Assembly (NCBI RefSeq): GCF_014647475.1
Contig: NZ_BMPG01000002.1
Location: forward strand, 62,001-126,000
Length of the DNA: 64,000 nucleotides
Direction of reading: 5' to 3'
Source of the DNA: Halocalculus aciditolerans
Lineage (GTDB): Archaea; Halobacteriota; Halobacteria; Halobacteriales; Halobacteriaceae
Below, piece by piece: positions 3,206 through 43,273 of this stretch (within the stretch, counting starts at the first letter, position 1; each line of letters starts with the position of its first letter). A program made the translations under genes and the position numbers. The notes beneath the pieces are model-generated. The model saw nothing but the letters and a program-made list of their open reading frames with translations, did no database searches and had not been told where the DNA came from.

Positions 3206-4573
3206 TCAGGCGTCGAAGGGGTTGTAGCGGACGACGGTCTCCTCGCGCGCCGGACCGACGCCGAGCGCGTAGACGGGCGCGTCGAGTTCGCCCTCGAGGT
3301 ACTCGACGTACTGGCGGGCTTCGAGGGGGAGGGCGTCGTAGCCCTCGACGGCGACGAGGCCGGAGTCGAACTCCTCCCAGCCGTCGAACGTCTTGAAGAC
3401 GGGTTCGCAGTCCGCCCAGCGTTCGGTCGTCGCCGGCACGGTGTGCGTGGTCTCGCCGTCGAGCTCGTAGGCGTGCCCGACTTTCACTTCGTCGAGGCCC
3501 GCGAGGACGTCGAGGTGGTTGAGCGCGAAGCCGGTGAAGCCGTTGACGCGCGCGGCGTGCCGGAGCATCGGGACGTCGAGCCAGCCGACGCGGCGCGGCC
3601 GGCCGGTGACGGTTCCGTACTCGCCGCCCTCCTCGCGGATGTAGGTCGCGAGCTCCTCGTTCGTTCCGCTCCCCTGTTCGCCGTAGCCGGGCGTGTCGCC
3701 TTCGACGCCGCCGAGTTCGGTGGGCATCGGCCCGCTCCCGACCCGGGAGAGGTAGGCTTTCACGATGCCGACGACTTCGCCGTCGCCGACGAGACCGGGG
3801 CTGAGACCGGTGCCGACCGCGCCGCCGCCGGCCGTCGGCGTCGACGACGTGACGTAGGGGTAGTTCCCGTGGTCGATGTCGAGGCTCGTCCCCTGCGCGC
3901 CTTCGAGCATCACGTTCGCGCCGGCCTCGGCGCGCTCGGTGAGGTAGTCGCCGGCGTCGACGGCCATGTCGTTCTCCACGATGCGCTCGCCGTACTCGCG
4001 GTACTCCTCGAAGACGGCGTCGACGTCGAACTCGTCGCCGGCGTCGCCGCCGTAGACGTCCTCGTAGAGCGCGCGCTTCTGCGGGATCGCGTATTCGAGG
4101 CGTTCGCGGAGGAGTTCGGGGTCGAGGAGGTCGGCGACGCGCACGCCGCGCCGGCCGGCCTTATCCTCGTACGTCGGGCCGATGCCTCGACCCGTCGTTC
4201 CGACCTCCTTGTCGTCCTCCGATTTCACGTCCTCCTCGATGCCGTCGAGCGCGCGGTGGTAGGGCATGATGACGTGCGCGCGTTTCGCGAGGCGGACGTC
4301 GGGTTCGAGGCCGCGCTCTTCGAGCGCGTCGATCTCGTCGAAGAGCGTGCCGGGGTTGATGACGCAGCCGTTCCCGAGCACGCCCGTCATGCCGCGGACC
4401 GCACCGGACGGGACGAGGGAGAGCTTGTACTCCTCGCCGCCCTCGACGACCGTGTGACCGGCGTTGTCGCCGCCCTGATAGCGCGCGACGACGTCGACGT
4501 CGCCGCCGAACAGGTCGACGACGCCGCCCTTGCCTTCGTCGCCCCACTGGGCACCGACGATGGTGGTAATCAT
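3206..4573 (-). CDS. purA: adenylosuccinate synthetase
   Basis: Joins IMP and aspartate using GTP, the first committed step from IMP to AMP. The 455-residue protein starts MITTIVGAQWGDEGKG, with the GTP-binding GDEGKG loop and the catalytic Asp/His pair of the family (GGDNAGHTVV). Other family signatures include the IMP-loop region with TGRGIGPTYEDK and the GTP site SVTGRPRR-like stretch (GTVTGRPRRVGWLD). The ATG at 4573 is chosen over a longer frame adding seven residues. It is alone on its strand, next to a divergent wHTH gene; the 240-bp gap between them holds both promoters. Confidence 0.95.
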   Translation of the reverse strand: MITTIVGAQWGDEGKGGVVDLFGGDVDVVARYQGGDNAGHTVVEGGEEYKLSLVPSGAVRGMTGVLGNGCVINPGTLFDEIDALEERGLEPDVRLAKRAHVIMPYHRALDGIEEDVKSEDDKEVGTTGRGIGPTYEDKAGRRGVRVADLLDPELLRERLEYAIPQKRALYEDVYGGDAGDEFDVDAVFEEYREYGERIVENDMAVDAGDYLTERAEAGANVMLEGAQGTSLDIDHGNYPYVTSSTPTAGGGAVGTGLSPGLVGDGEVVGIVKAYLSRVGSGPMPTELGGVEGDTPGYGEQGSGTNEELATYIREEGGEYGTVTGRPRRVGWLDVPMLRHAARVNGFTGFALNHLDVLAGLDEVKVGHAYELDGETTHTVPATTERWADCEPVFKTFDGWEEFDSGLVAVEGYDALPLEARQYVEYLEGELDAPVYALGVGPAREETVVRYNPFDA

Positions 4574-9250: not shown

Positions 9251-9258
9251 AACCCACT

Positions 9259-9295
9259 TTTTTATTGCGGGCCGGCTCCGCCGGCCCGATAAAAA
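9259..9295. repeat. palindrome copy A (TTTTTAT-stem-TCC-stem-ATAAAAA)
   Basis: Arms CGGGCCGGC and GCCGGCCCG enclose a TCC loop and are flanked by TTTTTAT on the left and ATAAAAA on the right; the left side has a two-base TG insertion relative to the copy at 15561. It starts 8 nt after a stop codon. A T5 tract on both strands makes it a plausible bidirectional terminator. Confidence 0.75.
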
Positions 9296-9568
9296 CCTGG
9301 ACTAAAAGCCTCCTCACTCCAGCCGCGGCGCTTTGCGCCGCGTTAGTCGCTCGTCGGCCAGCGCGCGAAGCGCGCTGTGAATCGGCGACCTTCCGGGCTC
9401 TTCGAGCCACTCGGTCGCCGAATTCTCTCGTGTGGTCCCGTAATCAGCAGTACGGCGTATGCGTCGCCTCTTCCGTGCTGTAGCGGTGTGATGGGCTGTG
9501 ACGGTATTTTCCGGTTATCCGGCTCGCAGTAGAAGGGCTAAAGGCGTGTTCGTTCGAAGAACGGGGTG
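9296..9568. repeat. hairpin array A, downstream of palindrome copy A; no gene
   Basis: No credible gene. It carries CGCGGCGC-TTT-GCGCCGCG (9324-9342), CAGCGCGC-GAA-GCGCGCTG (9359-9377), and a nested element at 9383-9420 with outer arms CGGCGACC/GGTCGCCG and inner GGCTC-TTC-GAGCC. Loops are exactly three bases and hairpin centres are about 34-35 bp apart. The remainder is the menF promoter region, with GGGCTAAAGG about 27 nt before the start and a small CGTTC-GAA-GAACG hairpin at 9551-9563. Confidence 0.65.
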
Positions 9569-14661: not shown

Positions 14662-15555
14662 ATGGTCTCCGAGATATTCGACGAGGACGCCTGGGAGGAA
14701 GTCGAGGGCTTCGACTTCCGGGACATCACGTACCACCGCGCGAGCGAGGTGGGCGCGCTCCGCATCGCCTTCGACCGCCCGGAGAAGCGCAACGCCTTCC
14801 GCCCCGGCACGGTCGACGAGCTCTCGCGCGCGCTCGACCACGCCAAACGCCAGGCGGACGTCGGCTGCGTCCTCCTCACTGGTAATGGCCCCAGCGAGAA
14901 GGACGGCGGCTGGGCCTTCTGCTCCGGCGGCGACCAGTCAGTCCGCGGGAGCGAGGGGTACGAATACCGGGGCGAGGACGAGTCACCGGATAAAGCCGAG
15001 GCCGGCCGCCTCCACATCTTAGAGGTCCAGCGGCAGATCCGCTTCATGCCGAAACCCGTCGTCGCCGTCGTCCCCGGCTGGGCCGTCGGCGGCGGCCACA
15101 GCCTCCACGTCGTCTGCGACCTCACCCTCGCGAGCGAGGAGCACGCGAAATTCCTCCAGACCGACCCCGACGTCGGGTCCTACGACGCCGGCTTCGGCTC
15201 CGCCTACCTCGCCCGCCAGATCGGCCAGAAGAAGGCGCGCGAAGTCTTCTTCCTCGGCAAGACCTACGACGCCGCGGAAGCCGCCGACATGGGCATGGTG
15301 AACGAAGCCGTCCCCCACGACGAACTGGAGGAGACCGCGCTGGAGTGGGCGGCCCGCATCGAGGGCAAGAGCCCGAACGCCATCCGGATGCTCAAGTACG
15401 GCTTCAACCTCCCCGACGACGGCATGGTCGGCCAACAGGTCTTCGCCGGCGAAGCAACCCGGCTCGGCTACATGACCGACGAAGCCCAGGAAGGCCGCGA
15501 CGCCTTCCTCGAAAAACGCGACCCCGACTACTCTGAGTACCCCTGGTACTACTAG
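14662..15555 (+). CDS. menB: 1,4-dihydroxy-2-naphthoyl-CoA synthase
   Basis: Crotonase-fold enzyme that closes the second ring from o-succinylbenzoyl-CoA. The 297-residue protein shows FDRPEKRNAFRPGTVDEL, the oxyanion-hole segments AFCSGGDQSVRG and GWAVGGGHSLHVVCDLTLAS, and the MenB-specific FLQTDPDVGSYDAGFGSAYLAR and SPNAIRMLKYGFN. MenB needs bicarbonate or an Asp side chain as base; here the GSYDAG Asp is present. Five bases after its stop comes the palindrome at 15561. Confidence 0.95.
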   Translation: MVSEIFDEDAWEEVEGFDFRDITYHRASEVGALRIAFDRPEKRNAFRPGTVDELSRALDHAKRQADVGCVLLTGNGPSEKDGGWAFCSGGDQSVRGSEGYEYRGEDESPDKAEAGRLHILEVQRQIRFMPKPVVAVVPGWAVGGGHSLHVVCDLTLASEEHAKFLQTDPDVGSYDAGFGSAYLARQIGQKKAREVFFLGKTYDAAEAADMGMVNEAVPHDELEETALEWAARIEGKSPNAIRMLKYGFNLPDDGMVGQQVFAGEATRLGYMTDEAQEGRDAFLEKRDPDYSEYPWYY

Positions 15556-15560
15556 AGACC

Positions 15561-15595
15561 TTTTTATCGGGCCGGCTCCGCCGGCCCGATAAAAA
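15561..15595. repeat. palindrome copy B, 16-bp perfect arms, TCC loop
   Basis: Arms TTTTTATCGGGCCGGC and its exact complement around TCC. It matches copy A at 9259 apart from the TG insertion in that copy, and like it begins a few bases after a stop codon (menB). The T5 tract on each strand suggests a bidirectional transcription terminator. Confidence 0.8.
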
Positions 15596-15996
15596 TCTCC
15601 ACCATTACCGGAACGCGAAGCGTTCCGGTTAGCAGTCGGATTCCGTCGGAATCCGACGACACTGCGGGAAATCTTCGATTTCCCGCCGTTCAGCCAGAAA
15701 CCGGAGGTTTCTGGCGACAAAGGCCCGTCACCCTCCCGTCGCGGCCCTCCGGGCCGCGGTGGTCAGGCTCGGGCCTCGCCGCTTCGCGGCGAGTGAATCG
15801 CGCTCACTGCGTTCGGGGGCGGCCGCGCCGTGACCCTCGTTTCGGGGATCCGGTTCGACGTAGCGGTTCACGACGCGGCGGAATTTCGAATACTCACGCG
15901 AGGAATGCGTTCCCTTGCTGAGTGTGGCGAGGCCGACTGTTTCGCCGTCCACGGTTCGGCGCGCACGTCTCATCGGGGCGGCTGCCTCGACCGCAC
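15596..15996. repeat. hairpin array B with triplet loops; no gene
   Basis: Six perfect inverted repeats, all with 3-nt loops: ACCGGAACGC-GAA (15607-15629), GTCGGATTCC-GTC (15635-15657), GCGGGAAATC-TTC (15664-15686), GCCAGAAACC-GGA (15693-15715), CGCGGCCC-TCC (15740-15758), CTCGCCGC-TTC (15775-15793). The first four have 10-bp arms and centres 28, 29 and 29 bp apart. Arm sequences differ from each other, so this is a structural and not a sequence repeat. From 15794 to 15996 nothing further is recognised. Confidence 0.75.
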
Positions 15997-43236: not shown

Positions 43237-43273
43237 AACGTGGTTTCGGGCGCGATGCGCCCGAAACCACGTT
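43237..43273. terminator. 17-bp perfect hairpin with GAT loop after dph2
   Basis: AACGTGGTTTCGGGCGC, loop GAT, then the exact complement ending at the first base of the dph2 stop codon (43273). It is the longest perfect inverted repeat seen in the window. There is no T-tract, so it may protect the dph2 mRNA end or mark a terminator of unusual type. Confidence 0.55.

Follow-up and report, generated by a model that had tools for sequence, protein, structure and literature searches.

A tandem pair of probable mobile di-hairpin modules behind a menB-like gene of the haloarchaeon Halocalculus aciditolerans

Results

A composite row of hairpins downstream of menB

The DNA analysed, referred to here as the window, is a 64,000-nt stretch of the Halocalculus aciditolerans genome (contig NZ_BMPG01000002.1, positions 62,001 to 126,000). 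An open reading frame on its forward strand, at 14662–15555, encodes a menB-like protein of the enoyl-CoA hydratase/isomerase family (Pfam PF00378), whose orthologues in relatives are 71–85% identical. The gene is followed by a terminator-like palindrome at 15561–15595, with perfect 16-bp arms, a 3-nt loop, a T-run on the left and an A-run on the right (TTTTT...AAAAA); similar palindromes occur behind many genes of the same genome and behind the menB orthologues. Immediately 3' of this palindrome, and between menB and a convergent gene, we confirmed an intergenic row of six hairpins, all with 3-nt loops. The first four have perfect 10-bp arms (15607–15629, 15635–15657, 15664–15686 and 15693–15715), the second being also readable as 11-bp arms around a 1-nt loop, and the last two have 8-bp arms (15740–15758 and 15775–15793). 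From centre to centre the distances along the row are 28, 29, 29, 45 and 35 bp, and every hairpin reported in the initial annotation, including the first four at 28, 29 and 29 bp, was thus located.

A chance origin of the row was rejected by shuffling, a check that the annotation had itself proposed: dinucleotide shuffling of the window, repeated 400 times, never produced three or more such hairpins in a row (arms of at least 8, spacing 25–40), where the real sequence has five, and the window holds six arms of 10 bp or more where such shuffles predict 0.44. Folded as RNA, the row is far more stable than shuffled sequence (z = −8.2 and −8.0, one value per strand). The spacing of 28–29 bp results from a hairpin of 10 + 3 + 10 nt and a linker of 5 or 6 nt; it corresponds to 2.7 helical turns at 10.5 bp per turn, so the proposal of a three-turn spacing that would place all hairpins on the same face of the helix does not hold. 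Elsewhere in the window, at 43237–43273, lies a lone perfect hairpin with 17-bp arms and the 3-nt loop GAT (AACGTGGTTTCGGGCGC).

As judged from sequence comparison, the row is a composite of the terminator-like palindrome, two tandem di-hairpin modules and part of another dispersed repeat. Module 1 (15604–15660, forward strand, 57 bp) consists of ATT, the hairpin 15607–15629 (loop GAA), the linker TAGCA (15630–15634), the hairpin 15635–15657 (loop GTC) and GAC, and has copies in the same genome. Module 2 (15661–15718, forward strand, 58 bp) is built in the same way from ACT, the hairpin 15664–15686 (loop TTC), the linker CGTTCA (15687–15692), the hairpin 15693–15715 (loop GGA) and GAC; its matches in this genome and in relatives were found with R1, a covariance model built from five own-genome copies and their relatives. 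The pair is flanked on the left by TCTCCACC (15596–15603, forward strand) and on the right by AAAGGCC (15719–15725, forward strand). The stretch from 15725 to 15830 belongs to another dispersed intergenic repeat, unrelated to the modules and with own-genome copies at L007, L008 and L040–L046, and it is this repeat that contains the two 8-bp hairpins. The six hairpins that had been taken for a single array are real, but they come from two different dispersed repeats, the four with 10-bp arms from one and the two with 8-bp arms from the other, and the longer palindrome upstream, the seventh, had been missed. The second repeat starts with AAAAGCC directly after the terminator context, and its hairpins, with 8-bp arms and 3-nt loops, have the core GGGCCTCGC..GCGAGTGAATCGCG.

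The module pair interrupts a site that is continuous elsewhere

The filled site in the window reads GATAAAAATCTCCACC-(115 bp)-AAAGGCC, with the junction CTCCACC^AAAGGCC. In the same genome, paralogous terminators carry the uninterrupted sites GATAAAAATCTGGACC^AAAAGCC and GTAAAAGCTCGACC^AAAAGCC, the left flank being matched by AAAAATCTGGACC^AAAAG (L054) and AAAAGCTCGACC^AAAAG (L042). Uninterrupted sites were also found downstream of menB in two species from a different genus in the same family (G003 and G015), where the right flank of the orthologous site is likewise continuous; these read GGCAAAAAGCGTCACC^AAAAAGGCC, with CGTCACC at the junction (L012), and CGCAAAAACCTTCACT^AAAAAGGCC, with CTTCACT at the junction (L011). 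The comparison of filled and uninterrupted sites therefore delimits the array to 15604–15718 and limits any target duplication to about 2 bp (CA). A 2-bp CA duplication is conceivable, but it was not adopted, as the flank bases do not agree reliably. Judging by these alignments, the pair appears to have entered a C^A junction that separates the menB terminator palindrome from the repeat after it. The homologous loci, a check likewise suggested beforehand, show an insertion and not a decayed coding frame, and an origin of the hairpins as coding remnants was rejected accordingly.

A module-free copy of the same terminator context is present in the window at 9256–9298 (GGGCCGGC-TCC-GCCGGCCC stem, AAAAACCTGGACTAAAAG). 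At another own-genome locus (C1:551209; L120, about 4210–4266) a module is flanked by a duplicated gene end of about 20 bp (TTAGGCGAGRTCGTGGATGT), which differs from the duplication-free insertions at other module sites.

Arms covary while linkers and edges are conserved

Across the family the unit is AYY-hp1-linker-hp2-GAC, where the linker is TAGCA, TGGCA, TTGCA or CGTTCA-like and hp1 and hp2 are the two hairpins; single modules measure 57–62 bp and the tandem pair in the window 115 bp. Arm pairing reached 98.5% in 84 copies from many genera, against 70–73% after the 3' arms had been swapped between copies. For 39 distinct copies aligned without gaps, paired cells made up 99.0%, against 77.5% after shuffling, both sides had changed in 16 of the 20 pairs, and the covariation score of 0.622 was reached by no shuffle (0.193 shuffled). 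The earlier suggestion that selection acts on structure and spacing and not on sequence is borne out as far as the covarying arms are concerned; module sequence, however, is not free, with arms drawn from a small set (CAGAAATC, CAGAACGC, GGGAAATC and others) and with conserved linkers (TAGCA, CGTTCA) and flanks (CAYY, GACA). Nearly invariant are the inner GAA/TTC of hp1, the loop-closing C-G pair and the linkers, and the module ends have a weak inverted similarity (RTCRYCAGAA-like).

Most of the variation lies in the loops. Near-identical copies within one genome differed at 45% of loop sites, 2.3% of arm sites and 1.4% of linker sites, a loop variability about 20 times that of the arms; the arm rate is biased low because the pairs were picked by arm similarity, a selection that does not bear on the linker rate. 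The 115-bp array of the window differs from its nearest own-genome copy at only two positions, both within loops. Loops are mostly GNA or TNC (96 of 168) and favour neither strand, and C-GNA-G triloops in DNA are unusually stable. An orthologous pair (L115/L094, GAT versus ATC) and 17 of 73 differing loops that are reverse complements hinted at loop inversion; over all equal-arm pairs, however, 32 were observed against 30 expected, and loop inversion as a trace of hairpin processing was dropped, since loop composition gives as much. A third recurrent hairpin pair in the same genome (L047, L048, L050, L052 and L053), GGCGAGAAC..GTTCTCGCTCGNAACCGGAACGC..GCGTTCCGGTGACGG with a spacing of 26, again shows identical arms and changing loops.

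Modules are dispersed through haloarchaeal genomes

In the H. aciditolerans genome (G000), blastn returned 28 matches, the best of 97% over 133 bp; among the copies are one of 97% at C1:491989, another of 84% at C1:655918 and, at C1:881861, an array of six hairpins. With R1, counting both strands, 40 matches at E ≤ 1 were obtained in this genome, at no fewer than 16 loci. Arrays of one, two and three modules are present here, and longer chains of six or more hairpins occur in G140 and G034. R1 matched 225 of the 392 Halobacteriales genomes searched, in 73 of their 95 genera, with E-values that are rough owing to a short calibration and weak matches that include other module types. Outside the order, four genomes score in a phylum-wide sample of 295, and two of these four, which belong to one genus, share the module architecture with arms of 8 bp; one of these cases again lies next to an IS palindrome. 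When the exact pattern of one common hairpin was scanned through 84,980 species, 78 of the 80 loci listed were haloarchaeal.

Modules lie within transposon-end palindromes and within each other

Terminators are not the only sites that modules occupy. In Halobacterium sp. DL1 (G004), the right-end palindrome of an IS605/TnpB element is split, as GGAAGCCCC-(ATC...GAC)-ACCCTCAAGG, while the corresponding palindrome of the H. aciditolerans genome is intact, GGAAGCCCCACCCTCAAGC. Insertions into near-terminal palindromes of IS605 or PATE elements were found at L098, L117, L154, L215, L217 and L232, and also at L243. A further case is L204, in which a related pair divides a palindrome present undivided elsewhere in that genome. 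At L097, L133, L219 and L238, modules are nested in the linker of another module type.

Discussion

A probable tandem pair of small mobile repeats

Because near-identical copies are dispersed, filled and uninterrupted sites can be paired and modules lie within one another, as seen among species representatives, we infer that the modules are mobile. From the sequence, the designation mobile di-hairpin module very probably applies. That 15604–15718 is a tandem pair of small transposase-free mobile repeats is, we think, probable, and the best explanation overall.

Such repeats have precedents in Haloquadratum walsbyi, where the SMR-A (HqIRS42, HqIRS43 and HqIRS55) are about 110 bp long with prominent terminal inverted repeats; they lack a transposase, are multicopy, make no target duplication and occupy near-terminal palindromes of IS605 and PATE elements, and their families share features and not sequence (Dyall-Smith et al. 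2011, PMC3119063). The modules likewise are transposase-free, multicopy and dispersed, have no long target duplication and insert within near-terminal IS605/PATE palindromes, and the window copy adjoins a terminator palindrome. They differ in their unit of 57–62 bp with two hairpins and ends of weak inverted similarity, and, unlike SMR-A as described, they also enter gene terminators and other modules. For SMR-A, no mention of hairpins or covarying arms came to light in the open-access text searched. From this comparison by description, the modules are best explained as small non-autonomous mobile repeats like SMR-A, and we do not file them as members. The initial annotation, which knew no element of this type, thus dealt with a haloarchaea-wide family that resembles the small mobile repeats of Haloquadratum (PMC3119063); we found no description of haloarchaeal di-hairpin modules in the open-access literature.

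H. walsbyi J07HQW1 (L373–L392) carries an abundant, diverged repeat of about 125 bp with the ends CAGTYGTTGG...CCAACGACTG. It was rejected as a di-hairpin module, since it lacks 3-nt-loop hairpins and is another kind of element; it may belong to the small mobile repeats already published.

Alternative readings

The array might instead work as RNA: transcripts running through the menB terminator, or antisense ones from the convergent gene, would contain a comb of hairpins that could stabilise 3' ends, block read-through or be processed. The very stable folds on both strands and the strong covariation of the arms speak for such a role, as does the fact that modules in the examined terminator contexts all point the same way with respect to the upstream gene, and bacterial hairpin clusters, which also place several adjacent hairpins behind a stop codon, are described as terminators (PMC8355165). 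The modules, however, differ from those clusters in being dispersed as a family and in having insertion boundaries that lie past a terminator palindrome of its own; outside the ends of host genes they also split other modules and IS605 palindromes, and the array has no Rfam match at E ≤ 1. The array lies outside the terminator palindrome and its T-tract, so that the RNA comb proposed in the initial annotation is not the obvious reading. Selection at the RNA level is less likely as the reason for its presence here because modules insert into transposon ends and homologous menB genes end without it, and we regard this reading as improbable.

Still less credit is due to a repeat of the REP/BIME type, whose copies would bind a protein (a nucleoid protein, or one like gyrase) and be spread by a RAYT-like Y1 transposase. 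The modules share with REP, BIME and REPIN systems (PMC3733652, PMC3116915) the short extragenic palindromes, in pairs and arrays, and the conserved unpaired edges; on the reverse strand the edges CGTC/TGTC, part of the two-hairpin unit, resemble the CGTC tag reported for some REPs (PMC3733652), in which a GTAG/CGTC tag would stand at one foot of the stem. Yet the arms differ between copies and covary around constant linkers, where a REP family has one consensus, the centres lie 2.7 turns apart, and REP identity was rejected as the genome has no RAYT or other Y1 gene. The least probable reading, and a very doubtful one, is that the modules are ends of IS200/IS605 elements, that is, terminal-only remnants (PATEs). 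Many copies do lie at the ends of TnpA/TnpB elements, 52-bp terminal-only PATEs are on record, and PATEs too are small, non-coding, palindromic and haloarchaeal (PMC3119063). PATE palindromes, however, are related to IS605 ends, whereas module hairpins are unrelated and insert into such palindromes; modules found at such ends split or adjoin the palindrome and do not stand in its place. PATE identity was rejected by comparison with the palindromes near module-free TnpA elements (L160–L166), which mostly have 4–6 nt loops and other sequences.

How the modules may move

For the preferred reading, that of mobile repeats, we envisage that the hairpins would form in single-stranded DNA or as cruciforms and would be recognised by the mobilising machinery, and that arrays may grow by insertion of a module beside a module or by tandem duplication. 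The step could be performed by a Y1/HUH transposase acting in trans, or by host hairpin-processing and replication enzymes at replication forks. Perfect arms, stable triloops, the preference for palindromic targets and the lack of a long target duplication fit a DNA-hairpin route, which we put forward tentatively, at somewhat less than even chances. A Y1 transposase acting in trans is unlikely: the H. aciditolerans genome, with eight TnpB genes, has no match to Y1_Tnp (PF01797) although it holds near-identical module copies, several module-rich genomes are without Y1_Tnp, and modules and Y1_Tnp are only weakly associated across the 392 genomes (odds ratio 1.6, p 0.03, kinship uncorrected). For these reasons the enzyme was set aside as the driver.

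At its site beyond the terminator, the module most likely behaves as a selfish element of nearly neutral effect. The insertion at the menB locus itself is ordinary; the family as a whole is interesting, widespread and under-described. More speculatively, and with the balance against it, the modules might make up a class of mobile DNA of their own, found across most genera of haloarchaea. What such DNA passes on would be a secondary structure, a conserved linker between two minimal hairpins, with arms replaceable provided that they pair, and it would spread into palindromes (IS605 ends, terminators and its own copies) by an undescribed route that needs no Y1 transposase in the same genome. In 2011 the mobilisation of the haloarchaeal small mobile repeats, studied in one species, was called enigmatic for want of a mechanism (PMC3119063); a module of 57–62 bp whose edges are precisely defined, together with a covariance model and pairs of filled and uninterrupted sites, makes the question directly testable. 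Modules also account for many of the hairpins that follow haloarchaeal genes or lie within IS605/TnpB ends; in the latter position they could influence transposition and omega-RNA.

At L112 (1500–1610), a hairpin chain begins right at the 3' end of an apparent tRNA gene. A 60-nt type-2 module lies near the 3' end of tnpB at L147 (2210–2269) and L151 (2045–2104); it seems to continue the reading frame of the gene and to lengthen the C-terminus by about 20 codons.
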